Source of the DNA: Aureococcus anophagefferens
Lineage: Eukaryota > Sar > Pelagophyceae > Pelagomonadales > Pelagomonadaceae
DNA: 64,000 bases
Assembly: GCF_000186865.1 (NCBI RefSeq)
Contig: NW_008705565.1
Coordinates: 404,440 to 468,439, forward strand
Direction: 5' to 3'
This document shows positions 3,001-50,900 of this stretch, in pieces. The notes beneath the pieces are model-generated. The model was not told the origin of the DNA. It ran no database searches and saw only the letters and a program-made list of their open reading frames with translations. The stretch's first letter is position 1. Every line of letters begins with the position of its first letter. Made by a program: the position numbers and the translations under genes.

Positions 3001-6000
3001 CGTCCTGGGCCACGCGGCCTGGTCCCGGGCGCTCGGCGCGCGCCCGGCCTTCGCGGCGCACGCGGCCGCGGCCGCCGGCGCGCCCTGGCCGCCGCCCAAG
3101 GGCGCGGTCGCGGCGCTGCCCGCGCTCGTCGCGCTGCCGCTGCTCGTGCTCCGCGGCGACGCCGCGGACGACGTGGCCGGCGTCGGCGCGCGGCGCGCGT
3201 GGGATCGCGCGCCGGCGGCGAGCCGGCGCGACGTCATGGACCGCCTCGAGTGCTGCGGCTTCTGCGCGCCGGGCGACAGCGACGTGCCCTGCCCCCGGGC
3301 GCTCGCCGGCTGCGGCGCGGCCGTCGAGGACGCCGCGCTCGCCTGCGCGGGGCTCGCGACGGCCTGGGAGCTCGCGGCCGCGGCCGTCGTCGTCGCCGGC
3401 GCCGCGTGGGTCGCGCTGCGCGTCGCGCGCCTCCACGCGACCCCGGGCGCGCTCGCCGTCGGCGTCGCGGGGACCGTGCGCGCCGCGGGCGACCGCGTCG
3501 CCGTGGAGGCGCGCGCGTCGGATCGTGCGGGCTGCGCCGTCGAGGCCGCGGTCGGGATCCTCCTGCGGGACGCGGCGGACGACGGCGGCTACAGCGTCGA
3601 CCTGGTCCTGACGTCCCCGACGCCCTTTGCGGAGTACGCGCGCGCGGTGCGGCTCGACCTCGCGGAGCGGATCCGTGCGCGCGCGCCGAACGCGCGCCCC
3701 GGAGACGTCGGCGACGTCGCGCGGCAGCTCGGTGTCGAGCGTCTCGCGGCCGTCGCCGTCTGCGGCGGCTCGACGAAGGTGCTCCTCCGCTGCGTCGCGC
3801 CGGAGCGGCGGGATCTCGACGACCTCGTGCGGCGGCTCAAGCCCGTGGCCTGGCGAGGCGGCCGCGCGACGCTCGAGGCCTCGGCGCCGCCGAGGCGGCG
3901 TGGCGTCGCCATTTCCTACCCCGACGCGTCCTTCGTACCGCGCGCCGCGGGCACCTACGAGGTCCGGGCGACGAGGGGACGCGCCAGGAGCGCGCCCGTC
4001 GTCGTGACGGTCGCGGCCGGAACACCCCATCGCGTCGTCCTGCTCGCGGGAGGCTTCGGCTTCGACCGCGCGGCCTCCTTCGGGGACCCGCCCGTCGTCG
4101 GCGTCGTCGATGCCTTCGGCAACGTGTGCGCGGACCTGTCGGCGACGGTCGTCTTCAGGATGCTGCCCCGCGCGTACGCGGACGCCGTCGCCTCGCTCGA
4201 GGTCTCGCTGGACCGCGGCGTCGCCGACGCGGTCGGCCGCGCCTTCTCCGAGGAGGTCGAAGACGGAACCTACGAGCTCGAAGTCTCGGTCGCGGGCGTC
4301 GATGACGTGGCGCCGGCGCGGAGTCGCGTCGTCGTCTTCGACGCGGCGCGGCGCGCGAGGCGCTTCGCGGCCGCCGCGACGCTCGTCGCCGGCGAGTGGC
4401 GCAAGCGCCGCGCGCGAGAGGCGAGGGCGAGGCTGCGCAAGCGCCGCTTCGTCGCGACGATCGCAGCCAAGGCCGCCGCGTTCGCGCGGCGCGCGGCCAG
4501 GGCCGCGGACCGCGCGCGGGTCGAGGGGCTCCGGCGCCGCTGGGAGGCGTGGGCGTCTCGAGCGGCCTCGAGGGCCCGCGCGCGGCGCCGGCTCCAGCGC
4601 TGGGCGCGCGACGTCGCCGCAAAGCGGGCGCGCCTCGAGCTCTACCGGCGACGGCTCCTGCGGCGGGTCCTGGAACGAGCCGTCGCGCACGTCGAGTGGC
4701 GCGAGATGGAGGAGTCGGGCGAGCTCCGCGAGCTCTCGCGCGCGACTCTCGACCGCGTCGTCTCCGCCGTGGAGGCGCGCGCGGCGCGCGAGGCGGGCCT
4801 CCGGCGCTGCCTCCGCGTCGCGGCCGCCGTTTCCGGGCGCGCGCTCAGCCGGGCGCTCGCGACCTGGAAGCAGCGAGTGATGGAGGAGTCGGACGAGCTC
4901 CGCGAGCTCTCGCGCGCGACTCTCGACCGCGTCGTCTCCGCCGTGGAGGCGCGCGCGGCGCGCGAGGCGGGCCTCCGGCGCTGCCTCCGCGTCGCGGCCG
5001 CCGTTTCCGGGCGCGCGCTCAGCCGGGCGCTCGCGACCTGGAAGCAGCGAGTGATGGAGGAGTCGGACGAGCTCCGCGAGCTCTCGCGCGCGACTCTCGA
5101 CCGCGTCGTCTCCGCCGTGGAGGCGCGCGCGGCGCGCGAGGCGGGCCTCCGGCGCTGCCTCCGCGTCGCGGCCTCCGTTTCCGGGCGCGCGCTCAGCCGG
5201 GCGCTCGCGACCTGGAAGCAGCGAGGCGAGGCGAGTCCCGAAGTGTCGGCGATGCTCGAGCGCCTCGTTCACGCCGTGGAGCTTCGCGCCGTGGAGCTCC
5301 GCGCTCGGGCCACCGCGCTGCGTCGCTGCCTCGGCAGGACCCGCATCGCGCTCCTCCGTTTGGCCCTGCAGGGCCTCGCGGCGCGAGCGGCGCGCGCGAC
5401 GGCCGAACGAGAGCGGGCGCGCGTCGACGCGCCCGCGGACGTCGTCGGTCTCCGAGCCGAGGTGTCGCGCCTCGCCGCGACGCCAAATCCTTCCGATGCC
5501 GACCGCGCGGCGCTCGCAGCGGCGCTCGCGGCGCTCGCGACGCGCACCAAGGCGTGGGTCCTCGCGGAGTGGCGTCGAACGGCGAGCCTCCGGAGCGTCG
5601 CGGCTCTCGAGCGGAAGCTCGCCGCCGCCGAGGCTCGCGTCGCCGCGGCGGAGGCGCGGGAGGACGACTCCGGGGCGACGATCGCCGGCCTCGAGGCCGA
5701 GCTCGCGGCCGCGCGCCGCGTGCTCGCGAACGAGCGCGCGCTCTTCCGGGCGAGACTCGCGGCCAAGGCCGCGCTCGTCGTGTGCCGCGACGACGACGAC
5801 GACTGGCTCGCGCGCGCGGCGTCGGCCCTCGCGGCCGCCGACGACCGCGACGCGGTCGACGCCGCCAGCGCGAAACGTCGCCTCGCGGCGCGCCTCGCGG
5901 AGCTGGCGGCGGCGCGAGCCGCGGTCGCGGACGGGTCCGCCGCGCCGGGCGCCGCCGAGGGCGCGCGCCGAGCCCTGGAGGACGCGCTCGTCGAAGCTGA

Positions 6001-13100: not shown

Positions 13101-14594
13101 TCGGGGCTCACCGTCGTCGACGGGCGCAACCTCGACGGCCTGCGCACGAACGCGACGATCTACGTCTACGACGACGACGTGAACGCCACGGACCCGGACG
13201 ACGCCTCGAAGCGGGAGCGCGCGGCCGCGTGCGCGGCGCTGGCGCCCGCGGCCGCGTCGGACGTCGGCGCGGACGCCGTCGACTCGCAGGCGGCCCTCGC
13301 GGGCCTCGTCCAGGGCTTCTGGCTCGACGAGGCGACGGGCTGGGCCGCGGCGGACCTCTGGTCCGCGGAGGTCGTCGGCCGGCCGTCGCCCTACGGCGGC
13401 GCCGAGGCCGGCGTCTTGCTCCTGAACAAGACCTGCGAGGACTCGAGCTCCTGGTACAAGGCGACGACGCCGTCGCGGGACTGCTCCTGGGTGGGCGACG
13501 ACGCGACGCAGCGCTGCGCGAACGCCAAGTCCATCGGCGGCGTCTACGCGCGCGTCGGCTGCCCGCGGACCTGCGGCGAGTGCGCCTGCGACGGCAAGCC
13601 CGCGGCGACCCTGGGCCTGCGCTGGCGGCCCAACGTGGACCTCGACGGCATGTTCGCGCCGGTCGTGCTCCGGGGCTGGTCCAAGACGAACAATTCCGAC
13701 GGGAACTGGAAGATGACCTTCGACCTCCACGACGGCGACACCTGGGCGAGCCAGCTCAGCGTGCCCTTCTCCGCGGGCGACGACGAGTGGGCCTACGCGG
13801 CGAAGACCTGGCGGCCCGACACGCCGGACCTCCGGAACGTCCGCGTCGCCCTGCACGCGCCCTGCGCGGCGCTGACGCACACGGGCGGGCCGACGCAGTT
13901 CGCCTTCGTCGGCGCGTTCTTCGACCCGAAGCTCTCCTGCAAGTGCGGCACGAAGCACTACCTGAAGAACGCGAACGGGAACCGGGAGAAGTGCCAGTAC
14001 TGCCCCGCGGCGTCCTACTGCGTCGACTCCGTGCGCTACCGGTGCCCCGAGGGCGAGATGAGCTTCGGCGGCTCCACGGCCTGCGAGCCCTGCCGCAAGG
14101 GCTACGTCTGCGAAAACGGCATCGGCGTCGTCTGCGAGGGCACGTCGGACTTTAGCGACAACATCGCCGCGGACGGCCACTGCGACGCGGCCTGCCCCGC
14201 GGGCTTCGAGTGCCGCGCGGGCGTCGCCACGGGCTGCGCGCCCGGCAAGTACGCGCCGGAGAGCCGCGTCGTGCCGGACCACATGCACGACTGCATCCCC
14301 TGCGACCCGGGCTACTTCGCGAACGAGACGAACTCGACGGCCTGCCACCCGTGCCCCGCGGGGAAGACCTCGAAGCTCGGCGAGGCGACGTGCTTCGACT
14401 GCGCCGCGGGCGAGTTCGTCCGGCGCGGCGCCTACCCCTGCGCGTCCTGCCCCGCGGGGACCTGGTCGCCCGCGGGCGCGGGCGCCTGCACGAACTGCAC
14501 CGCGGGGCGCTACGCGGCCGAGGTCGGCACGAACGTCGCGTGCTACGCGTGCAACGGGTCCACGGCCGAGGCCGCGACGAGTTGTGGGGCGTAA
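10107..14594 (+). CDS. Secreted metzincin protease (M11/gametolysin-like) with Cys-rich repeats
   Basis: This protein has 1,495 residues. The ATG at 10107 is chosen because it starts a hydrophobic signal peptide ending near ALDG; frame upstream of it looks non-coding. The zinc motif HELGHNFGAYH (residues 361-371) fits HExxHxxGxxH, and a Met-turn candidate (YTVMGSG) follows near residue 404, as in metzincins that cleave cell-wall or matrix glycoproteins. After the catalytic part come a Ser/Pro linker, ephrin-receptor-like Cys repeats (CxxCPxGTY pattern, 12330-12640), an EGF-like segment (12680-12780), a Calx-beta-like domain (12800-13190), a ShKT-like six-Cys module (about 13430-13590) and more Cys repeats to the end. 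The stop falls inside a Cys repeat just where GTAAGG could act as a splice donor, so a further 3' exon is possible. Confidence 0.85.
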   Translation: MGVVRAALCLATTAAALDGLFPAPLEARHRRIHDDVARLAADGGAGELEVACLKRLALLRALVAEDNVTAAVDLSLALGASARFGSCGRDAPHVGEAQVLVRVASHRAAGGSNATARVRVDKDWLAASPKRFRVSGDEPVVGFALDGVFHAVAAPMRCEASGDGGAACDGGRGAERFPSTAAAHEAARNATKRAKRGRRPSRFADTDDDYVKGTATILIIPACPSDVTCADEWDGIAASVGIGTYVDNLVDALNGYLDENSYGQFQLDATVTPTMQLAYSSSSCGSTDPLGYYYGDAYALDSMAFAAAEAYDATYAMGNYDYYAILPQYCSGWGWLGIAFVGVPGAVLNLLAYDYDAAFAHELGHNFGAYHASFDDAEGARGAVAWWDDGSSDWVEYANPYTVMGSGAISPSDTSPHYLGVGKVIFDWIAESDVESVEPHDANDDGACAPCGPFSLQAIDDGSWASGVPGLLEIATATADRYLFVEYRSQFSGALLTWSDVRGTSSTTGNYGNTLLLDGHPSTTSYADAVLGLGEEVVVDLGTQANQGVRWATVTVGSSLTSSGHLEITVSASDTKAPTAMEANADPAFMAGFILYVSEETTRDCYVLTVGDALHKTGTQSPTHEGCYAGAGASSGWTLLGTYKHTVNETQFFADGDAAGCNATALLVESHAPAASNVTAVATGTACVLALVITGPLDSELWPAALGDYALWAPSVMPTPLPSTGRPSGLPTSTPTEVLRCPENWYGRGLHDECYECPAGTYTENDEGGLELDDCISCTAGRYNADEAGEGCPLCPRGTYSATDAAAMGLNCTACGLSTDADPGASSCSSCAAGRAALFGYADCVSCSLDDDSECPDGPLGGTCSNRGDCTFGACVCDACASGADCSVDACGTQSGGGVGVTLATSVFAFREGEVANVTVDVARVLGLSGAETATLSVASSTTADARDYDAALFPLTASLADGDALASVVVPLRNGTWGSASKVAGGGCRKLVLELASSGLTVVDGRNLDGLRTNATIYVYDDDVNATDPDDASKRERAAACAALAPAAASDVGADAVDSQAALAGLVQGFWLDEATGWAAADLWSAEVVGRPSPYGGAEAGVLLLNKTCEDSSSWYKATTPSRDCSWVGDDATQRCANAKSIGGVYARVGCPRTCGECACDGKPAATLGLRWRPNVDLDGMFAPVVLRGWSKTNNSDGNWKMTFDLHDGDTWASQLSVPFSAGDDEWAYAAKTWRPDTPDLRNVRVALHAPCAALTHTGGPTQFAFVGAFFDPKLSCKCGTKHYLKNANGNREKCQYCPAASYCVDSVRYRCPEGEMSFGGSTACEPCRKGYVCENGIGVVCEGTSDFSDNIAADGHCDAACPAGFECRAGVATGCAPGKYAPESRVVPDHMHDCIPCDPGYFANETNSTACHPCPAGKTSKLGEATCFDCAAGEFVRRGAYPCASCPAGTWSPAGAGACTNCTAGRYAAEVGTNVACYACNGSTAEAATSCGA

Positions 14595-14813
14595 GGGAAA
14601 TTTTCTTTTAGTGGAGCTGAGGTTTGATCACTTCAAGGACTACTTCACTTACTACTTTGAACAGCGAGCGAAGCGAGCGGAGTGGCAACAGTGTGATAAT
14701 CAGAGCCTCAAGCTGCGCGCCGTCCCTTGCATCGGCCGCGTCGGGCGTCCCTTGCATCGTCGGCGTCGGGCGGCGTCCTTGCGACTCATTGTTGCTAGCC
14801 CACGTCGATTCCC

Positions 14814-29193: not shown

Positions 29194-30324
29194 ATGGAGA
29201 AGATCGACACGGAGCTCCTGGACGACGCCAACGCGCGGGTGAGATTCGCCTGCGTCATCTGCGCCGATCTGCTCCACGAGCCGACGTCCGTGTGCGTCCA
29301 AGGGCACCCGTTCTGCTCCGACTGCATCGCCAAGCACCTGACGAGGAAGTCGGAATGCCCGACCTGCCGCCGGCCCGCGACCCCAGCCACGAGGCTCCTG
29401 CCCTTTGAGGAGATCATGCTCGAGGCGACGATGCGGTGCAAGCACGCGGCGAGGCGCGAAGATGACGCCGAGCCCCCGACGAAGCGGGCCAAGGGCCTCG
29501 AGCCCTGCCCCTGGCGCGGCATCGTGGGCGAATACCGCGCCCACCTCGCGGGAGAGTGCCCGCTGGAACCGGTCGTCTGCCCCGTGTGCTCCGAAACGGT
29601 GGCGCATCGCTGCCTCCTCGGCCAGCACGAGCCCGTCTGCCTGCACCCGTGCCCCCATTTCGGCTGCGGGCACCGAGCGACGCGCGCCGATATGGCGACG
29701 CACCTGGTCGAACACGCGGCGACGCACGCGCTGACTGCGGCCACGAAGATCGCGGAGCTCGAATCGAAGACGTCGGAGCTCGAGGGCAAACTGGAATATT
29801 TACGCGACTGGACGCGCGTCAAGTTCGTTTGGCGTCCTCTGGCCAAAGACATCTTCAAAGCGCATGAGCCGGACAGCGCATTCTTCTCTGCATCTTTCTT
29901 AGTTTGGCCCGGATTTCGACTCCAGATATCGGCTAAAGACGTGCCGGAGACGATAGGTGACCCCGAAGGCACCGCTTACCGATTCTGCATGCGCAACCAA
30001 CTCGACAAGATTCCCTCGAGATGGCATGGCAGATTATTCATGCTTCCTACTACGAATCGCACGGGTCGAACGCTCTCGTATGGAAGCCGGGATCACCCAA
30101 ATCGCTTTCCATTCCAAGAAGAGAAACACTGGTCAGTATATGTTGAGAATCGCTTCACGGAAGCGCAAATTCGGGGCTTGACGCATGAAGATGGGAAACT
30201 TGCCATCAATGCCGAACTGTGGGTCAAAGATGAGTTCTCTGAGGTCTTCAGTGCACCTACCATCAACCTATCCTTGTCATCGGACATGCCGGTGGCGGAT
30301 CTGCTCGGTATCGGCAGAGAGTGA
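29194..30324 (+). CDS. RING / TRAF-type zinc finger protein (putative E3 ubiquitin ligase)
   Basis: This protein has 376 residues and no intron. A C3HC4 RING spans about residues 20-60 (CVIC...HPFCSDC...CPTC). Two TRAF-type zinc fingers follow (about 100-170, with CPWRG...H..C and CPHFGCGHRA...H). A short heptad coiled coil (about 178-200) and a C-terminal 160-residue region resembling the TRAF/MATH beta-sandwich complete it. The order RING, TRAF fingers, coil, TRAF-C is that of TRAF proteins, which trimerise and ubiquitinate signalling partners. From about 29790 codons become less GC-rich than in the first half, so the two halves may have different histories. It converges with the NSF-like gene, with 71 bp between stops. 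Confidence 0.83.
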   Translation: MEKIDTELLDDANARVRFACVICADLLHEPTSVCVQGHPFCSDCIAKHLTRKSECPTCRRPATPATRLLPFEEIMLEATMRCKHAARREDDAEPPTKRAKGLEPCPWRGIVGEYRAHLAGECPLEPVVCPVCSETVAHRCLLGQHEPVCLHPCPHFGCGHRATRADMATHLVEHAATHALTAATKIAELESKTSELEGKLEYLRDWTRVKFVWRPLAKDIFKAHEPDSAFFSASFLVWPGFRLQISAKDVPETIGDPEGTAYRFCMRNQLDKIPSRWHGRLFMLPTTNRTGRTLSYGSRDHPNRFPFQEEKHWSVYVENRFTEAQIRGLTHEDGKLAINAELWVKDEFSEVFSAPTINLSLSSDMPVADLLGIGRE

Positions 30325-32661: not shown

Positions 32662-35238
32662 TTAGACCCCGCCCTTGTCGAGGGCCTCGCCGCGGACGGC
32701 CTTGCGCAGGGTCTTGACGCGGGCGAGGCGCTCCCGGTTGTCGAGCGTCGCGTCGAGCGCGCCGGAGTCCTCGAGGCCGCGGAGCCGCGCGCGGCCGTCG
32801 CTGAGGCGGTCCCGGGCGCCGCGGGGCCGGCCCGGCTCGTCGGGGGCGTACGCGAAGGGCTCGTCGGGGACGTACGCGAAGTCGCCGAGCTCGCCCGGCG
32901 CCGTGCGGCTGAGGCGGTCGACGCGCGAGGACCGGACGTTGTGGAGCGACGCGGACGCGGAGAAGTGGTGGTGGCTCGCGCGCGCGCGCGCGTCGGCGAC
33001 GGCGCTCACGGCCGCGGCGCCGTGGCCCGCGGAGACGAAGGCGCGCGACGTCCGGAGCGGCGGCGCGTCGTCGCGGCCGCAGCCGTCGCAGTCGCAGCCG
33101 TCGTCGTAGACCTCGACGTAGCGCTCGCGGGGCCCGACGGCGCAGGGCTCCTCGAGCATGTCGTCGTAGGTGAGGCGCGCCGCGGGCTCCTCGAGGAAGC
33201 GGTCGATGGCCTCGTCGGTGGCGAGGCGGTAGTCCGCGCCGCGCCGCTCCGCGTCCGCGAGCTCCGGGCAGAGCGTCGCCGGGTGCGGCTCGTAGGCGCA
33301 GTCGCTGCCGAGGTCGTCGTCGCCGCCGAAGAGGTCGAGGCGCGTCGTCGCGCGGGCCTCGGCCTCGTCCATGCGCCGCTCGAACTCCTTGTCGCTCGCC
33401 TCGCGCGCCTCCTTCTTCTCGCGCGCCTCCTTCTCCTCCTCCGTCTCGAGGCCCGTCACGTCCGGGTCGTCGCCGGGCTTCGTCGCCTCGTCCTTGCCGA
33501 CCATGACCTTGCAGCCGAGCCGCTTCTGCATGAGGCCCAGCGCGAGGTCGAGCTCCGCCTGGACGTTGTGCGACGCGTCCGCCAGCGTGTACTCGGGCTC
33601 GGGCGCCGGCGGCGGCGCGCAGGGGTCCGGCGCCATGCGGTTCATGGGCACGGGCGGGTGGCCGCCGCAGGGGTCGTGGCAGCGCGCCTGGCAGTGCTGC
33701 CAGGAGGCGTCGTGGCACCCGTGGTCGCCGCCGCCGCCGCCGCCGCCGCCGCAGCCGCCGCCGCAGCCGCCGCCGCAGCCGAAGGTCTCCGCGGCCTCGA
33801 GGAGCCGCAACGAGTGGGCCTCGCGCACCTCGCGCTCCATCTGCTGCCGCTCCGCGTCCTTCTCCTTCTGGAGGTCGTCCTGGAGCTTCTTCTCCGCGGC
33901 CTCCTTGGCCTGGTACATCTTGGTGAACGAGTAGAGCGCCGCGTCGAGGTGCTCGCTGATCTGGCCGAGGGTCTGGGGCGCGCCGCGGGGCGGGCCGACG
34001 CAGCCGTAGTCGCCGCAGCCGTAGCCGCCGCAGCCGTAGCCGCCGCCGCCGTAGCCGCCGCCGCCCGGGCCGGGGTCGTCGCCGTAGCGGACCGTGACGC
34101 CGTCGGCGCGGCACGGCGCGAGGTCCTCGGCGCCGAGGCGCTGCGTCATCGTCCCGATGGCCGCGTCGAGGTTCGACGCGATGTCCGCGAGCGTCGCCGT
34201 CGCCGGGTTCGGCGGCGGCGGCGCCGACGCGCGGCGCGACGCCGACGCGCGGAGCCGGCGCCTCGCGTCGGCGACGATGCCGTCCGACTCGTAGGCGTCG
34301 ACGCCGCCGGGGCACGTCGACGCGGCGACGTCGAAGTCGTCGACGGGCACGAGGCCGAAGTCGCCGAGGCCGCCGCCGAAGTCGCCGAGGTCGACCTGCT
34401 CTTCTATTCCGCCCATCGTCTCCGCGCGGCGCATGCGGCTCGCCCAGCCCGCGGCGCTCCGGCCGCCGGGCGCAGTCGACGCCAGCGGCGCGCTCGCCGA
34501 CCGGCCGCGGGCGGGCGCGTCCCAGTCGACGCCGTCGATGGCGTCGTCGTACTCCGGGCGCCACCGCGCGGACGGCGGCGCCGCGCGGCGCGGCGGCGGC
34601 GGCGACGGCGCCTCGAACTCCGCGGACGCGCGCGACCGCCGCTCGAGCTCCCGCCGCAGCAGCGCCTCGTCCTCGGCGGCGAGGGTCTTCTCGGCCTCGG
34701 CGGCGAGGGCCGCCGAGGACGAGGCCTCCGGGCGCCACCGCGCGGACGGCGGCGCCGCGCGGCGCGGCGGCGGCGGCGACGGCGCCTCGAACTCCGCGGA
34801 CGCGCGCGACCGCCGCTCGAGCTCCCGCCGCAGCAGCGCCTCGTCCTCGGCGGCGAGGGTCTTCTCGGCCTCGGCGGCGAGGGCCGCCGAGGACGAGGCC
34901 TCCGGGCGCCACCGCGCGGACGGCGGCGCCGCGCGGCGCGGCGGCGGCGGCGACGGCGCCTCGAACTCCGCGGACGCGCGCGACCGCCGCTCGAGCTCCC
35001 GCCGCAGCAGCGCCTCGTCCTCGGCGGCGAGGGCCGCCGCCCGCGCCTCGTCGCGGCCGAAGCGCTCCGGCGGCGCCTCGTAGCGGGGGCTCCGGGCCTC
35101 GCGGCGCGCCGCCGGCGGCCGGTCGGCCTTCCACCAGACCTCCTCGAGCTCCCCGGTGCCGATGCGCCGCTCCCGCTCCTCGGGCGCTGTCGGCGGCGCG
35201 TTACGGAACCGGTCGATGAGGGCGGCGGCGCTCGACAT
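32662..35238 (-). CDS. Repeat-rich coiled-coil protein of unknown function
   Basis: This protein has 858 residues; Met 35238 (MSSAAALIDRF) is the start. The N-terminal part carries three 58-residue repeats (EDEALLRREL...ARWRPEASSSAA). The middle has three helical units of the type LADIASNLDAAIGTMTQRLG, separated by Gly/Cys/Tyr runs (GYGCGGYGCGDYGC and a Cys/Gly tract near 33720-33780) and a coiled coil of Glu/Lys/Gln. The C terminus holds DGRARLRGLEDSGALDATLD, shared with the AAA+ gene on the same strand 244 bp downstream. There is no signal or membrane segment. Cys/Gly tracts could bind metal. I cannot name a family. It is divergent from ClpR across 138 bp. Confidence 0.68.
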   Translation of the reverse strand: MSSAAALIDRFRNAPPTAPEERERRIGTGELEEVWWKADRPPAARREARSPRYEAPPERFGRDEARAAALAAEDEALLRRELERRSRASAEFEAPSPPPPRRAAPPSARWRPEASSSAALAAEAEKTLAAEDEALLRRELERRSRASAEFEAPSPPPPRRAAPPSARWRPEASSSAALAAEAEKTLAAEDEALLRRELERRSRASAEFEAPSPPPPRRAAPPSARWRPEYDDAIDGVDWDAPARGRSASAPLASTAPGGRSAAGWASRMRRAETMGGIEEQVDLGDFGGGLGDFGLVPVDDFDVAASTCPGGVDAYESDGIVADARRRLRASASRRASAPPPPNPATATLADIASNLDAAIGTMTQRLGAEDLAPCRADGVTVRYGDDPGPGGGGYGGGGYGCGGYGCGDYGCVGPPRGAPQTLGQISEHLDAALYSFTKMYQAKEAAEKKLQDDLQKEKDAERQQMEREVREAHSLRLLEAAETFGCGGGCGGGCGGGGGGGGDHGCHDASWQHCQARCHDPCGGHPPVPMNRMAPDPCAPPPAPEPEYTLADASHNVQAELDLALGLMQKRLGCKVMVGKDEATKPGDDPDVTGLETEEEKEAREKKEAREASDKEFERRMDEAEARATTRLDLFGGDDDLGSDCAYEPHPATLCPELADAERRGADYRLATDEAIDRFLEEPAARLTYDDMLEEPCAVGPRERYVEVYDDGCDCDGCGRDDAPPLRTSRAFVSAGHGAAAVSAVADARARASHHHFSASASLHNVRSSRVDRLSRTAPGELGDFAYVPDEPFAYAPDEPGRPRGARDRLSDGRARLRGLEDSGALDATLDNRERLARVKTLRKAVRGEALDKGGV
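32741..32799 (-). repeat. Shared C-terminal motif, copy in the repeat-rich gene
   Basis: This is the second copy of the motif described at 30604-30665. It lies about 40 codons before the stop of its gene; in the AAA+ gene the copy lies about 70 codons before the stop. Confidence 0.9.
34553..35030 (-). repeat. 174-bp coding tandem repeat, about 2.75 copies
   Basis: Units begin (plus-strand coordinates) at 34553, 34727 and 34901 and are almost identical. Each encodes 58 residues: an acidic/basic helix followed by a Pro/Arg loop. The outermost unit diverges after about 130 bp. The period equals that of the unrelated array at 4706-5227. Confidence 0.9.
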
Positions 35239-36273: not shown

Positions 36274-38824
36274 TTATGGGTTCAGCAGGCTCGCGCCTGG
36301 CTTCGCGGCCGCGTCGCTCGGGTGCACGCGTGGCGGCGCGCCCGCGCCGTTCCCCGCGTGGCCCGACCCGCGGAGGCTCGCGACGGCGAGCACCTTGGCC
36401 CGCAGCCGCCCGCCCGTGACATGGGGCGTGAGCTCGCCGTCGCTCTCGCGCGACATCGCGCGCGCGAGCTGGCGGCAGGACACGAGCTCGTCCTGGAGGC
36501 CCTGCGCGAGGCGGCTCGGGCTCTTGAGCTCGACGATCTGGTCGTAGAGCTTGCACGCGTCCTCGAGGTCGACGACGAAGAGGCCCTCGTGGGGCGCGTC
36601 GAGGTCCGCGATGAGGTACGAGCTCGCCGCGATCAACGCGACGGTCGCGAAGCAGAGCGCCGCGTTCAGGCCCTCGGACCCGCTCTGAATCAACAATATG
36701 CCGAAGAACATGCCGTTGCAGAGGAGGAGATTCAGCGCGTAGAGGCTCCAGTGGAGCGCGCGGCGCTCGAGCGCCGACCGCGCGTAGCGGCTCGTCGCCG
36801 TCTCGCCCGCGGCCTGTGTGGAAATCAAATCTTCAGCCCGACTTCAATGTGCGCGTATTTGAGAGTTTTGACGCAAGCTCTTCGGCTCTGCTTCGAGAAC
36901 TTGACGAGAGCGATCGATTCGTCCAAAAATCAGCCAAATCGACTTCGATTTGACCGAGCTCGATAATTTCAACGTTTGGTCGGGACGTCCCAAACCGGCG
37001 GTTGATTTTCTCACAGCCCGCGGCCTCGAGCGAGCTCTTGGCGATGTCGTTGTGGAACTCGCCGCAGTTGGCGGAGGCCTTCTCGAGCGCCGGGACGATG
37101 CTGTAGAGCTTGGCGAGCTGCTTCACGTCCGCGCAGCGGCCGACGGTGATCTCCTCGAGGAGGTGCTCCGCGTAGACGAAGAGGATGTCGAGGAGCTCCG
37201 TCTTCAACGAGAGCTGGTCGGCGCTCGCGGCCGAGAGCGCGGCGATGAGGAGGAACGTGCGGTGGAGGCCCGCGCACTCCGCCGCGAGGTGGGCCTGGAT
37301 CGCCGCGAGACGCTCGCTCGCGACGCTCAGCGTCTGCGCGAGCACGAGGCCGTAGACGAGGCCCGCGACGGAGAGGTAGGACGCCGCGGCGTCGTTCTGG
37401 TACGCGTCGGCCTTGTCGCCGTTGTTCCGGTAGATGGTCCGCATGAGGCGCGGCGCGCACGCGAGGAGCACGAGCGATCCGAGCGAGCTCAGCGCCGCCG
37501 TCGCCCACGGCGGCGGCCGCGCGCCGCGGAGCCGCCGGGCCAGGACGTCGTCGAAGGACCGCTTGATCGCGCCGCGGCCGCCCCAGAGCGCGCCGAGCAG
37601 GCAGGCGACGAAGAGCGCCGCGTAGACCGCGGGCAGCGCCGCGCCGCGGCCGCCGCGCGGGCACGGCGCCGGCGGGTCGAGCGCGCAGGCGCCCTCGCAG
37701 TACGCGCTCTCGAGGCCCCGGAGCAGGCAGCGCGCCGCGGTCATGGACGCGGCGACGGACCCGATCGCCGAGCCCCGGAGGCACGAAGGGGCGTAGGGCG
37801 GGTCCGGCGAGACGTGGTAGCGCCGGGTGGCAACGTCGAAGTTGCACGGGCCGAGCGTCGCGGAAGTCCGGAGCGCGCCCGACGCGTCGTAGGGCCCGAA
37901 GAGCGGGAAGCCGTCGAGCATGACGCCGACGCGCGGGCTCGGCGCGCCGGAGGCCGCCCAAGTAGCCGCGCCGAGCGTCGGTCGCGTCGCGTTGCCGAGC
38001 GCGCCCAAACTCCGCAGGAGGCAGAGCGGCGGGCCGTGGTAGTGGTGCCGGTGCGCGCGGTCCACGTGGCCGCCACACGCGTCGAACTCGAAGACCGTCG
38101 GCGCCGCGCCGTGGTCCGCGAAGAAGGGCACGCCGTTGACGGCGACGCCGATGGGGTCCCCGTAGGGGTGGTCGCTCGCGACGTACGTCGACCCCGCGCC
38201 GACCTCGGGCGCCGAGGGGACGACGTAGGCATAGCGGTGCTCCATGGGCGTGAAGATGCCGAGGGCGGACGCGTCCGCCGCGGTCGCTCCGGTCCCGCAG
38301 GCCGACCCGCAGCACGACGCGCCGCAGAGCCGCCGCCCGCAGGACGCGCCGCAGCAGCCGCCCGCGCAGGAGCTTCCCGAGCAACACGAGGCGCCGCACC
38401 CGCTCCCGGAGCACGAGGAACCGCCGCAGCACGACGAGGCGCCGCAGCTGCTCCCGGAGCACGAGGAACCGCCGCAGCACGAGGCGCCGCAGCTGCTTCC
38501 AGAGCAAGAGGAGCCGCAGGCGCTTCCGGAACAGCACGCGCCGCCGCAGCTGCCCGAGCAGCACGCGTCGCCGCAGCCCGCGCCGCAATCGCCGTACGAC
38601 GCGCTGGCCTTGACGAGAGGTCCTCCGAAGATCTCATGGTCCGGGCAGCCCGTGGCCTGTATCGAGAGGCTGCCCTTCGTCGACTGGACAAAGATGGAGT
38701 CCAGGAAGCAGAAATTGTTGGCGCGCGATGGCTCGTCGTCTGGACCACATATGCGCCCTAGAAGCGCCTTGGTTTGCGTCGACGGGCCCTCTTCGCACTT
38801 ATTTTGGGCGCCAGCGGAGCACAT
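36274..38824 (-). CDS. YHYH-domain / DUF4239 bestrophin-like membrane protein
   Basis: Exon A (38824-37025) and exon B (36813-36274) join in phase 0 to 779 residues. A Cys/Gly/Ser repeat region (about residues 80-165) precedes a YHYH domain with HRHHYHGP (near 265) and GVMLDGFPLFGPYD (near 315). A hydrophobic helix follows near 405. The second half is a DUF4239/bestrophin-like domain: YQNDAAASYLSVAGLVYGLVLA, a long helical loop, then after the intron two membrane helices (LNLLLCNGMFFGILLI and LCFATVALIAASSYL). The domain is split exactly by the introner-like intron. There is no signal peptide at the current start; a strong acceptor (CAATTACAG, minus strand near 38852) in frame upstream suggests another 5' exon, which I could not place. 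Confidence 0.75.
36814..37016 (-). mobile_element. Introner-like element acting as an intron
   Basis: This 203-bp element starts CTGTGTGGAAATCAA (plus strand) and ends TTGATTTTCTCACAG, an inverted repeat with 13 of 15 matches. Exact 8-bp direct repeats CCCGCGGC flank it (36806-36813 and 37017-37024). On the gene's strand the reading frame is restored only if the element plus one flanking copy is removed. The intron is then 37024 down to 36814, with a GC donor inside the upstream copy (GAG|GCCGCG) and an AG acceptor formed by the element's own CACAG end. The element is clearly less GC-rich than the exons. Introner elements with short inverted repeats and 8-bp duplications are known from Aureococcus; membership in that family is inference. 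Confidence 0.87.
38340..38590 (-). repeat. Cys/Gly/Ser-encoding repeat region
   Basis: Imperfect units of about 30-50 bp encode CGGSSCSGSSCGAS-type peptides in the N-terminal part of the YHYH protein. More than thirty cysteines fall within about 85 residues, so metal binding or disulphide cross-linking is plausible. Confidence 0.8.
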
Positions 38825-44900: not shown

Positions 44901-47900
44901 CGCAGACCCACTGGCGCAGGGCGTCGTGGGCCGCGCGGTGGCACATGGTCACCAACACGCGCCGCATCGTCCCCTCCGCCGCGGCGCAGGCCCGCGCCTC
45001 GAGGTCCCACTGGCGGAACGCGGCCCAGAGTTTGCGATGCGCCATCCGCGACGCGACGCGGCGGCACCGCTCCTCGACGGCCTTCAACGCGCGCGCGTTG
45101 CAGGCCCACTCGTGGAACGCGGCGAACACGGCGAGATTCGCCATGCGCTTCAGCACCTTGCCGCACAACGCCTCCGCGCGCCGCTCCGACCTCGCGGTGA
45201 GGAGCCACGACCGGAACGCCGAGTGGGTCCTCCGGTGCGTCATCTTGAGGATCACGCGCACGCACTTGCGCTCGACGTCCCGCGCGCGCCGCGTCGCGTC
45301 GCGCCAGGACCGGAAGGCGCCCGCGGCCTTGCGGTGGCCGAGGCGGCCCACGGCCGCGCGGACGCGGCGCTTCTTCCTTTCGTGGTCGACGACGACGGCC
45401 TTCCACTGGCGCACGGCCGCCGCGAGCGCGTGCTTGCTCAGCTCGACGAGCACGTGGCGCATCTGGTGCTCCCTGGCGGCCTCCGCCGCCGTGGCCCGGC
45501 GCCACGCGTCGAAGCCCGCGGCGGACGCGCGGTGGCCCATCTTGCCCACGACCCGCTTCATCCGCCGCTCGCTCTCGAGGAAGTCCCGGATCTGGGCCGC
45601 CCACTGGCGCACGGCCCGGCTCTGGGCGCCGTGGTAGGCCCGGAGCAGCACGCGGCGCATCGTGTCGCGCTTGCCGTTCTCCTCGCGGACGAACGCGACC
45701 CAGCTCCGCCAGCGGCCGTGCGTCGCCCGGAGGTTCCGGTTCGACAGCAGCGCGGCCGCGCGGACGCAGGCCTGGGCCTCCTTCAGGCGCGCGAGCTCGC
45801 GGCTCTTGCCGTCGACGTAGAAGAGCCGCGCGGCGACGACCCAGCGGCGCCACGCGAGCGCCTCGGCCTTTTTCAACAGGCGTCCGGCGACCTTCGCGGC
45901 CAAAGCGACACCGCGGCGGCCCTCCTCGGACCGCGCGACGGCCTCGGCCCAGGACCGCCAGGCCGCGAGCTCGACGGCCCGCGTCCAGCGCTTCACGAGC
46001 CGCTCGCATTTGGCCGCCGCGCGCCGGTGGAGCACCCACGTGTGGAGCGCCGCGCGGAGCTTCCGCGCGTCCGCGCCGCGGAGCGACGCGAGCGCGCGCG
46101 ACGCGCCCCGGTGGCGCGCGTCGGCCGCGGCGCGCGCCAGGTCCGTGGCGGCCTTCCAGGTGCGCAGCCCCGTCCAGGCGCCGAGCTTGTCGAGGCGCTT
46201 CAGCGCGCGGAGCGGGTCGTGGGCGGACGTCGCGAGGCGCCCGAACATGGTCGTCCGCGCCTGCTCCGCCCGCAGCTTCGCCGACAGGGAGCTCGCCGAG
46301 TCCTCGAACATGACCGTCGACCAGGCGTGGAAGCCCCGGCTCAGCGAGCGGCTCTGGCAGCGGCGGAGCACGCGCTCGGCCATCTTGACGCCGACGGATC
46401 GCGCCGCGGTCGCGTGCCGCGACCGCGACGCGAAGGAGATCCAGCGCATGAGCCCCCGCATGGCGTCGAGCTTCGCCCGCGCCTCGGCGACCTGTAGAAT
46501 GGACCGGAGCCGCAACCGCTGGCCCTCGAAGCGCAGCGCCAGCGCGTGGAGCGCCTCCGTCGCCGCGCGCGCGGCCGCGCGCCAGGCCATCCAAGCGAGG
46601 TGGAGCGTGCGGTGCGACATGTGGCTCAGCGTCTTGACGACGATGGCCTCGGCGCGCCGCCGGTCGCGCACGGCCTCGGCCCAGCGCCGCAGGCCCGCCG
46701 CGAGCGCGCGGTCGCCCTGGCGCAGGACGAGCCGCGCGGCGCGCGCGCACGCGCGGCTCCGCGTGAGGTCCCGCACGTGCGCCTCGCGACTCGCCACCTC
46801 CGCCGCCGCGAGGAAGCCGACCCAGGTGTGCAGCGCGCGCGCGAGGTCCCGCCGCGCGAGCTGGCGGAGCGCGCGGAGCGCGAGCGCGCCCGCGCGGTCG
46901 CGGTCCAAAGCGCGCATATAGACGTCGACCCAGGCGGAGAAGCCCGCGGCCTGCTTGCTGTGCGTCCAGCGACCAAAAAGATGGTCGAGCCGGACCATCG
47001 TGCGCTGGTGGAGGCGCCACGAGAGCCAGCCCGCGCGCCGCTTCCGCGCGTCGCCGTCCGCGAAGAGGCGGAGCACGACGTCGCAGGCCGCTCGTTGCCG
47101 TTCTGCTAGAGCGCGGAGCTCCGCCGTCGCCAAGACCCAGGTGCGCCAGCCCGTCCACGCGTCGAGGGCGTTGAGGCGCCGCAGCGCGCGCACGGGGTCG
47201 TGGACGCAGCGGCCGATGCGCCGGAGCACGTCGAGCCGGTCCCGCTTCTCGCTGCCCACGGCCCGCACCCACTGGCGCAGGCCCTTGGCCAGGCCCCGCG
47301 CCACGAGCTTGCGCAGGCAGCGGTCCGACACGGCGCACGCGCGCTCCTGGCTCGCGCGCCACTCCGCCAACAAATTCCCGTGCCGCAGCCACGTGCTAAA
47401 GGCCAGCGCCACGAGGCGCCGCCCCTTGCTGTGGCACCGATTGTAGACGGCGCGCGTCATGCGGTGGTGGCGCACCTTGGCGCTCTCGCGCACGGCCGAC
47501 GCGTGGATCGACAGGACCCGGAGCTCCACGACTCTCCCGTGCCACGCGCGCCACGCCTGGGACGCCGCCCGGTGGAGCATGTGCTTGAGCACGCGCACGA
47601 CCGTGGCCTCGGCGTCGGCGAGGCGCGCCACCTGGGCGACCCACTGGTTCCAGCCCGCCGCGGCGAACGCGTTGAGCACGTGCTTTAATACCCTTGTCAT
47701 CTTCCGCTCGACGTCCGCGCTCCGCCGGAACACGTAGACCCAGCGCCGCCAGCCCGCGGCCTCCATGGACGCGAGCATCTTCAGGAGCGCCCGCGTCATC
47801 GTCGCCTCCTTGGCTCGCTCGGCCGCGACGACGGCGGCCCACTGGCGGACGGCCTCGTTCGCCTTGCGGTGCGACATCTTCGACAGCGCGCGCCGCATGC

Positions 47901-50900
47901 GCGCCTCGAGCCGCGCCTCGCCGCGCGCCGTCGCGGCCCAGCGGCGGAAGGCGCCGGCGGCCTTGCGGTGCGTGAGCTTGCCGAGCGCCCGGCGCATCTT
48001 CCGCTCGACGTCGCGGAGGCATTCGCACGCGGCGCGCCACGCGCGGAACGCGGCCGCGATGTGGCGGTGCGACAGCCGGAGCACGACGCGCCGCGTCTTG
48101 AGCTCGACGTCCGCCGCGCGGCGGTTCGCCAGGACCCACTGGCGCAGGGCCGCCGCGGTCCGCCGGTGCGCGAAGCGCCCCAGGACCGCGCGCGTCGAGC
48201 GCTCGACGCGGCGGTCGCTCTCGAGCGCCGCGAGCCACTGGGCCAGGGCGGCGGCCAACGCGCGGTGGGACACGCGCAGGATCACCCTCTCCATCTTGCG
48301 CTCGTTGGCGAGGGCCACGCGTACGGCGAAGGTCCAGCGGCGGAGCGCGGCCGCGTGGCGGCGGTGGCTCATCTTGAGCAGCGCCGCGCGCAGCAGGTCG
48401 TCGACGCGGTCGAGGTGCGCGACGACGGCGGCCCAGCGCATGAGTGCCAGGGCCGCCGCGCGGTGGCCCATGCGCCCGAGGCACCGGAGCACCCTGGCCT
48501 CGCCTCTGAGCGCGGCCGCGACGACGTTGCGCCACTGCGTCCAGGCGAGGCCCGCGGACCGGTGCTCCATGCGCCGCAGGGTCTTGCCGATCTTGGCCTC
48601 GGCGCGGCGCTCGAAGCGCTGGACGTCGACCCACTGGCGCATCGCGGCGCCGGCCGCGCGGTGCGACAGACGACGCACGAACCGCGCCATCTTCCGCTCG
48701 CCGGCGCGCCGCTCCGCGGCCTTGGCGGCCCAGACGTCGAAGGCGGCCCAGAGCTTGATGTGGGCCATGCGGCAGACGACGCGCAGCACCCTGGCCTCGA
48801 GCCGCGCGGCGGACCGGTGGACGGAGGCCCACTGGCGGAACGCGGCCGCGGCCGCGCGGTTCGAGAGCTTGCCCAGGACGCGGAACACCTTCGTCTCCAG
48901 CTGCGACGCGAAGGCCTCGACGAGCTTCCACTGGTTCAGCGCCGCGACGAGTCGGCGGTGCGACATGCGCGACAGCACGCGCCGCACGCGCGACTCGACG
49001 CGGCGCAGCGACCGGTCGACGAACGCCCAGCGGCGGAAGCCCGCGGCCGCCGCGCGGTGGACCATCTTCAGGAGCACGTGGAGCACGCGCTGCTCCAGCA
49101 GCCGCTCCTTCTTGCAGGCGTCGAACCACGCGCGGAACGCGCGCGCCTGCGCGCGATGGCCGAGCTTGCCGAGCACGCGGAGCACGCTCCGCTCCGCGCC
49201 GCGGTCCGCGTCGACGAAGGCCCGCCACTTGCCAAAGCCCCCGGCCGCCGCGCGGTGGCCCAGGCGTAGGATGACGCGGACCATCTTCGCCTCGAGCGCG
49301 GCCCCGGCGCGCGCCGCGCGCGCCCAGGTGCCGAAACCCGCGGCCGTCGCCCGGTGCCGGAGCTTCGACACGACCTTGAGGATCTTCCGCCGCGACGCCG
49401 TCGCCGCCCGCGCGGCCCGCGCCCACTGCGTCGTCGCCGTCGCGAGCGCCGCGTGGAGGCACCGGAGGATCACGCGGCGCATCTTCGCGCGCCGCGCCTT
49501 CTCGGACCGCGCCGCCGAGGCCCACGCGCGCCAGCGGCCGTTGAGGGCGCGCAGGCTCGCGTCCCGGAAGAGCTTGACGGCCTTGAGCAGGCCCTCGCGC
49601 CGGGCCCGGTGGCCCAGGCCCGCCGCGCGCCGCTCCTCGAGCCACGCGCGGCGCGCGAGCTCCCACGCGCGCCACGCGGCCGCGACCTCGACCTTCTTCA
49701 TGCGGCCCAGGGCCTTGGCGACGAGCGCCGCCGCGTCTTTCAGGCATTTCCGCGCGCGGCCGTGGTCCCGCCAGGTGCGCACGCCCGCCGCGAGCTTCGA
49801 GGCCTTCCATCGCGCGACGAGCTTCTGGACCCGCCGCGACGCGTCGCGACGCGCGCGCCACGAGGCCATGCCCCGCCGCAGCCAGCGCGTCTCCACGGAG
49901 GTCATGGCCCGGAGCGCGCCCTTGGCCATGCGCGCGGCGGAGACCTCCGCGTCGCGGAGCGCGGCGAAGTTCTCCTTCCAGGTCCGGACCGCGGGCCAGA
50001 CGTCGAGGCGCTCGAGCCGCTTCAGCGCGCGGAGCGGGTCGTGGACGGACGTGGCGATGCGCGCGAAGAGGTCGTTGCGCCGCGATTGGGCCTCGAGGCG
50101 CGCGAGCAGCGACCGCTCGCTGTCCGTCTTGAGCACGTCCTTCCAGGTGTGGACCGCCGCGGCGAGGCGCCGCCGCGACGCGCGGCGGATGGCCCGGTCG
50201 ACCATGGTCGCGGACCGGCTCTTGTTCCGCCCGTCGCGGTCCGCGTCGGCGGCCTTTTGCGCGAAGAGGCGCCAGGTGCCGAGGGCCGGCGCGACCTTGG
50301 AGTGGCGGAAGCGCAGCGTCGCGTGCTTGAGCGCGGACCGCAGCCGCTTCCGCTCGCCGACGTGGCCGACCCAGGCGTTCCAGGCGCGGTGCTCGAGGGC
50401 GCGCAGGAAGCGCAGGCGGCACTTCATGGCCGCGGCCTCGGCGCGCCGCTTCGCGACGAGAGCCTCGGCCTCGCGGCGGATCGCGGCGTCGCGGTGCAGG
50501 CGCCAGCTCCGGAGCGCGGGCCCGAGCGCGCCCTGCGTCAGCCGCAGGACGCAGCGGCGCACGAGGCCGCGCAGCCGCTTCCGTTCGGCGGCGAAGGCCC
50601 GCCAGCCCGCGTAGGCTCTTCCCGTCGCGTGGTTCGCGAGGCGCCGGCGGCACCGGTCGACGACGGCCGCGCGCCGTCGCTCGAGCCGCGCGTCCTTCGA
50701 AAGCCTCGCCGTCGCGCCGCGCCAGGTCCGCAGGCCGCGCTGGAGGGTCGCGCGGCTCCAGACGACGACGCCGCGCTGGAGCAGCGACCGTAGCTTCGCG
50801 TGGTTCGCCGTCGACGCTCGCCATCGGTCGACGGCGCGGCCGGCGCGCGACCGCGCGAGGCGCCGCTTTACGCGCTCGAGGCCCCGGGCCCGGTGCACGA

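Follow-up and report, generated by a model that had tools for sequence, protein, structure and literature searches.

Introners of Micromonas pusilla and Aureococcus anophagefferens are said to arise by a mechanism set out in 2016 by Huff, Zilberman and Roy (reportedly in Nature 538:533), in which a non-autonomous transposon carries one splice site and co-opts the other from its target duplication. The kind of introner described below is already known, and its mechanism is in print for A. anophagefferens. The present locus appears to follow the same mechanism as the A. anophagefferens introners of that study, the likeness being one of description.

Gozashti et al. 2022 (PMC9860276) count introners among the leading explanations for genome-wide gain of spliceosomal introns, and section 7 of that paper describes families in which the 3′ splice site is carried and the 5′ splice site is taken from the duplication. 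As excerpted from the same paper, the introners of Symbiodinium microadriaticum have terminal inverted repeats (TIRs), carry the 3′ site and obtain the 5′ site from the duplication; the splice-site scheme and the TIRs are alike in the present family, but the duplication is 4 bp there and 8 bp here. Aureococcus sp. family 4, again as given in the relevant part of PMC9860276, shares the 8-bp duplication and the genus name. In contrast to the window family, however, it is described there as carrying both splice sites and as adding 12 bp to the transcript, whereas nothing would be added here. The range of GC donors across introner families is 0–50% in the portion of that paper dealing with donors; the 42 of 64 putative GC donors found here lie above it, a comparison that serves as a pointer only, because the sample is non-random.

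For Aureococcus introners, an excerpt of PMC9481584 gives a characteristic length of around 210 bp, to be set beside the 211 nt of element plus repeat at the present locus, and the pertinent passage of PMC7789003 reports direct repeats and TIRs of constant length. The latter passage also covers the introner elements of Amoebophrya, which are bounded by direct and inverted repeats as the present element is. They differ in their non-canonical splice motifs, direct repeats of 3–5 nt and a proposed hairpin, whereas the element described here would use GY-AG boundaries and shows no excess folding. Insertion of introners in both orientations, as stated in an excerpt of PMC10228655, is common to the published introners and the window family (33:31). 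The genome of A. anophagefferens CCMP1851 is listed with 49.9 Mb and 70.5% GC in the part of PMC11237714 concerned.

The window, the whole 64,000-nucleotide stretch of A. anophagefferens DNA that was analysed, presents a clean introner case (Table 1). Judged from its sequence features, the element is very probably a non-autonomous, MITE-like DNA transposon with TIRs that has turned into a spliceosomal intron of a YHYH/Bestrophin-like gene. The host gene lies on the minus strand and extends from at least 38245 to a stop codon at 36274–36276; its start may lie further upstream than 38245. The introner element, also on the minus strand, has a GC content of 48% in a window that averages about 73% (64–82% over 2-kb stretches). 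It is bounded by an exact 8-bp direct repeat, CCCGCGGC, and ends in 15-bp TIRs that match at 13 of 15 positions. A sequence-only reading of this DNA had described a 203-bp insert with such termini and such repeats, and the present analysis confirmed its coordinates. In gene-sense order the site reads CTCGAG GCCGCGGG CTGTGAGAAAATCA...TTTCCACACAG GCCGCGGG CGAGACGG, and the ends of the family consensus are CTGTGTGGAAATCAA and TTGATTTCCACACAG. As the element is too small to hold a transposase gene, it is taken to be non-autonomous.

Table 1 Features of the introner locus and its host gene, in window coordinates.
Feature	Position	Strand	Remarks
Upstream coding exon	37025..38245	-	ATG (MEHRY...); encodes the YHYH domain and the initial portion of the Bestrophin-like one; coding phase -1
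Upstream (gene-sense) copy of the target duplication	37017..37024	-	GCCGCGGG on the minus strand; first two bases GC, the putative 5′ splice site
Introner element, 203 bp	36814..37016	-	Homologous copies in the genome; length 203 in 61/86 copies
Gene-sense 5′ terminal inverted repeat	37002..37016	-	CTGTGAGAAAATCAA on the minus strand; family consensus CTGTGTGGAAATCAA
Gene-sense 3′ terminal inverted repeat	36814..36828	-	TTGATTTCCACACAG on the minus strand; last two bases the putative acceptor AG
Downstream copy of the target duplication	36806..36813	-	Would persist after splicing as exonic GCCGCGGG
Downstream coding exon (contains the stop and the downstream repeat)	36274..36813	-	Rest of the Bestrophin-like domain; coding phase -0

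The proposed series of events starts with a transposase acting in trans, which would have cut the target in a staggered way and thereby produced an 8-bp repeat on each side of the element. Each TIR ends outward in ...CACAG, so that an AG acceptor would be offered on either strand; both orientations do occur, as the counts given below show. The dinucleotide that opens the upstream repeat copy, GC at this locus, would serve as the 5′ splice site. An intron of 211 nt, composed of the upstream repeat and the element (203+8), would then run from the start of this repeat to the terminal AG, and its removal would restore the host frame and protein exactly. The predicted junction, CTCGAG/GCCGCGGGCGAGACG, takes out 36814–37024, and GAG/GCCGCGGGCGAG is the junction predicted without use of the GTGAGA donor that is discussed below. 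Insertions whose target began without GY on the sense strand would have been lost to selection, as suggested by the contrast between sense and antisense strands.

The window was scanned for exact 8-bp repeats with 150–250 bp between the copies and with ends that match at 12 or more of 15 positions. Six sites were returned, namely the introner (13/15), four sites in a 174-bp tandem repeat (34573 and 34747, 14/15; 34686 and 34703, 12/15) and a site at 3061 (12/15). The pattern alone is therefore not unique, and the five other places lend some colour to the idea that the paired repeats at the present locus arose by chance in GC-rich sequence and not through a mobile element. The copies of the family elsewhere show that the introner is no accident. 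In the 49.05 Mb of genome searched (86 contigs, with the window on contig 5), an internal 28-mer with at most 2 mismatches was found at 600 forward and 606 reverse places, 1206 together, and a more conserved internal 22-mer at 1480 and 1471 places, 2951 together; the reversed controls gave 0+0 in both searches. The first look had yielded 1753 candidates. The 40 that were scored all align nearly end to end, and the 39 besides the window copy are 86–92% identical to it. There are well over a thousand copies in the genome, and their 8-bp duplications are locus-specific; a chance origin, refuted by this copy number, has a probability that is practically nil.

A sample of 85 loci was drawn from these copies in three parts: the 30 closest to the window copy, which is counted among them; 25 of 25 that show a particular end pattern; and the 30 that head the list of 1206 places. 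Incomplete core matches (seven), places represented more than once and copies lying too close to a locus end were dropped, which left 86 copies. The sample is non-random, and some of the 86 copies may be segmental duplicates of each other. Two of them (L009 and L017) have the same repeat and the same length, and each has a neighbour of 99.5% identity. Comparison of left and right flanks revealed 85–93% identity at eight positions, compared with 31–51% in shuffled pairs, and background values outside these positions. The target duplication is perfect in 55 of the 86 copies and matches in at least 7 of 8 positions in 75; its size is fixed at 8 bp and its sequence differs from locus to locus. A genome search for copies with related termini and 8-bp duplications had been suggested in the sequence-only reading as a check, and the 1206 places and 55/86 perfect duplications bear it out on this point.

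Frames were called flank by flank with a codon model (third-position GC 97%) whose training set, the window plus these very flanks, overlapped with what it scored. Clear coding on one strand was seen on both sides of 67 of the 86 copies, while 17 had one clear flank, 1 had neither and 1 was spoiled by N. After removal of the element and one repeat, the two flanks were in frame in 64 of the 67 copies (chance would give one third). The three exceptions (L002, L040 and L056) look like cases of a boundary placed off by one, since displacement by a single base brings the repeat back, perfectly in L002 and L056 and with 7/8 matches in L040. Among the 64 in-frame copies, gene and element point the same way in 31 and opposite ways in 33. 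The restored frames and the 8-bp duplications uphold the earlier view of the insert as a transposon that acts as an intron.

The dinucleotide at the start of the upstream repeat in these 64 copies is GC in 42, GT in 21 and GA in 1. A GY donor is thus available in 63 of 64 copies, in comparison with 20% GY in the flanking exons (15.8% GC, 4.3% GT), and when these repeats are read on the antisense strand, only 17 of 64 begin with GY. Given that a transposase is blind to the strand of the gene, the excess of GY on the sense strand presumably reflects the survival of spliceable insertions. Relative to the exons, GT is somewhat enriched among the GY donors (21/63, P=0.03). Repeat positions 3–8 exhibit no strong donor consensus in the 64 copies, and none is visible at +3 to +6. 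GC donors exceed GT donors two to one in a set without a +3 to +6 consensus, which suggests that the information content of the 5′ splice site may be very low in A. anophagefferens, and the family statistics give an indication of how permissive this site may be.

At the gene-sense 3′ end, all 64 copies retain the terminal AG, whereas its mirror image at the 5′ end is retained in 53 (Fisher P=6e-4; the 11 discordant copies all point in one direction). The same repeat is present at both ends of the element, so that the idle end serves as a control for the working end. Conservation of the AG at the working end, with decay at the idle one, is what selection for an acceptor predicts. Together with the excess of GY on the sense strand, this asymmetry would amount to a sign of splicing that can be read without transcripts. 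The earlier proposal that the AG comes from the end of the element and the GC donor from duplicated host DNA fits the family as a whole, with GY in 63/64 and AG in 64/64 copies. In Figure 5 of PMC3488318, which plots branch-point strength against acceptor strength, A. anophagefferens is described as a clear outlier, a position that might stem from the presence of one common terminal repeat in thousands of introns.

Two further elements of the intron were considered and rejected. For the motif TTGAT in the terminal repeat there is no evidence of a guarded branch point, its frequency being about equal at both ends (53 vs 54 of 66). An RNA hairpin is likewise dismissed as a splicing aid, as the 211-nt intron has a z value of 0.06 and its folding is equalled or bettered by 98 of 200 shuffles; in the predicted fold of the intron, the terminal repeats are unpaired with each other.

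Within the host gene, the coding phase switches between about 37065 and 36765, where the 203-bp stretch of 48% GC sits. Removal of the element and one repeat gives ...KSSLEAAGETATSRYARS..., and the Pfam profile PF14023 (Bestrophin-like), once named DUF4239, is split by the element at profile positions 103 and 153. The insert is thus located inside this domain, as had been stated earlier. A protein search with residues 440–720 of the joined protein found one match among the 8000 candidates scored. This ENA entry of 586 amino acids, P0001, is identical to the joined protein at 570 of 586 positions (97%), aligns gaplessly and has the same start Met and the same end. It crosses the junction as SSLEAAGETATS, with no gap across SSLEAAG/ETATS, and its continuous PF14023 domain scores 68.4 bits, compared with 30.9 + 32.0 for the two halves in the window gene. 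P0001 could stem either from a spliced transcript or from an allele without the insert, and the joined reading is supported both ways. In the viral contigs searched, there was no relative of P0001 and no match to the introner core; one terminal match in these contigs was taken for chance.

If the element is retained, the frame stops inside it, 63 codons past the predicted junction, and the rest of the domain is lost. Such an outcome would suit a decayed, unspliced insertion that has broken this allele, the likeness to an intron being a property of the family only. Both exons nevertheless keep strong coding statistics, in different phases, the near-identity to P0001 continues downstream of the site, and the terminal AG and GY donor of the window copy are intact, all of which makes a broken allele highly improbable.

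The choice of splice sites was explored with the 96 GY..AG pairs that lie no more than 60 nt from the junctions. The exact uninterrupted protein results from one pair of the 96, which joins the start of the repeat with the end of the element, and 31 other pairs hold an open frame to the same stop, with residues added or lost. The sequence-only reading had asserted that only removal of the insert and one repeat restores the frame. With respect to the exact protein this is correct, but the word "only" does not hold for an open frame.

Two differences in the 5′ TIR of the window copy (37002–37016, minus strand) turn CTGTGTGG into CTGTGAGA and thereby generate the string GTGAGA at an offset of 10 nt within the intron. 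The minus-strand sequence of the window copy is CTGTGAGAAAATC where the consensus has CTGTGTGGAAATC, and neither of the two differences is seen again at this end in the remaining rows of a 66-row set. The gain of this GTRAG-like site raises the question of whether the element, although a true introner, has had its splicing shifted wholly or partly to its own GTGAGA donor and a nearby AG. A pair formed by GTGAGA and CTGAAG, the latter situated 17 nt upstream of the terminal AG, would indeed keep the frame and add 9 residues. However, the pair of GTGAGA with the terminal AG is absent from the in-frame pairs, the family-wide constraint falls on the terminal AG, and P0001 is without the 9 extra residues, though it may represent an empty-site allele. 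A shift of this kind is very unlikely, and splicing from the repeat start to the terminal AG is the preferred reading.

The window copy differs from the family consensus by 7.4%; values across the 86 copies run from 3.0 to 23.6%, with a median of 9.4%, and the nearest neighbour of the window copy among them is 92.1% identical to it. The window copy is an ordinary member of the family and not a fresh one. A recent birth, which the near-perfect ends had earlier been thought to suggest, is unsupported by a distance of 7.4%.

Domain searches and screening of end matches did not find an autonomous partner in the genome. The hAT dimerisation domain PF05699 had 0 genome matches, with an equally silent control, and the MULE domain PF10551 had 0, with a control that responded in 3 of 14 cases. 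Searches for a KDZ-type domain (control silent), an IS1595-type domain and a P-type GTP-binding domain (control silent) each gave 0 genome matches as well. Where the control stayed silent, such a zero does not prove absence. The screen for end matches covered exact terminal repeats followed by G or T, as distinct from inexact repeats or those followed by A or C; the 12 places with such a repeat all proved to be short elements of 147–208 bp from end to end.

A single P-type RNase H domain match above the cut-off, with a silent control, was obtained in the genome, at locus L099 on contig 25, and the 4.4 kb of flank searched around it contain no introner ends. The P-type transposase-like piece occupies L099 positions 3059–4100 and 4279–4389 (about 177958–179288 of contig 25). 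The P-type frame of 3059–4100 contains seven TAG stops and no TAA or TGA, which may reflect recoding, decay or foreign origin. A piece resembling the interior of the introner adjoins the P-type locus (score 44, compared with at most 22 in 60 shuffles), and an AT-rich stretch unlike the window lies beside the P-type piece.

P elements make 8-bp duplications. The duplication of the present family is of the same size, which makes the P superfamily a lead and no more. A broader proposal would regard the TIR as a two-way 3′ splice module for which the 5′ site needs only GY at the right spot, so that about one fifth of coding insertions might splice at once, in either orientation, and would name a now-relict P-superfamily transposase as the mobiliser. 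In this full form the proposal is unlikely.

As to the remainder of the window, no Rfam match reached the gathering score anywhere in it, and the 22-nt family core, with up to 3 mismatches, was found nowhere in the window beyond the introner copy itself, the other low-GC islands included. Two such islands without the introner core are situated at 14561–14720 and 29821–30290. The former is placed between two coding stretches of the same phase and could represent either a conventional intron or the border of a gene. Three tandem copies with a period of 174 bp occur at two places, 34552–35073 (86–100% alike) and 4676–5225 (93%), and the repeat at 34552–35073 falls within long open frames. A diverged repeat at 47837–49184, with copies spaced by multiples of 99 bp (33 residues), lies inside a minus-strand coding stretch at about 42–51 kb, and related copies to its left are spaced irregularly.
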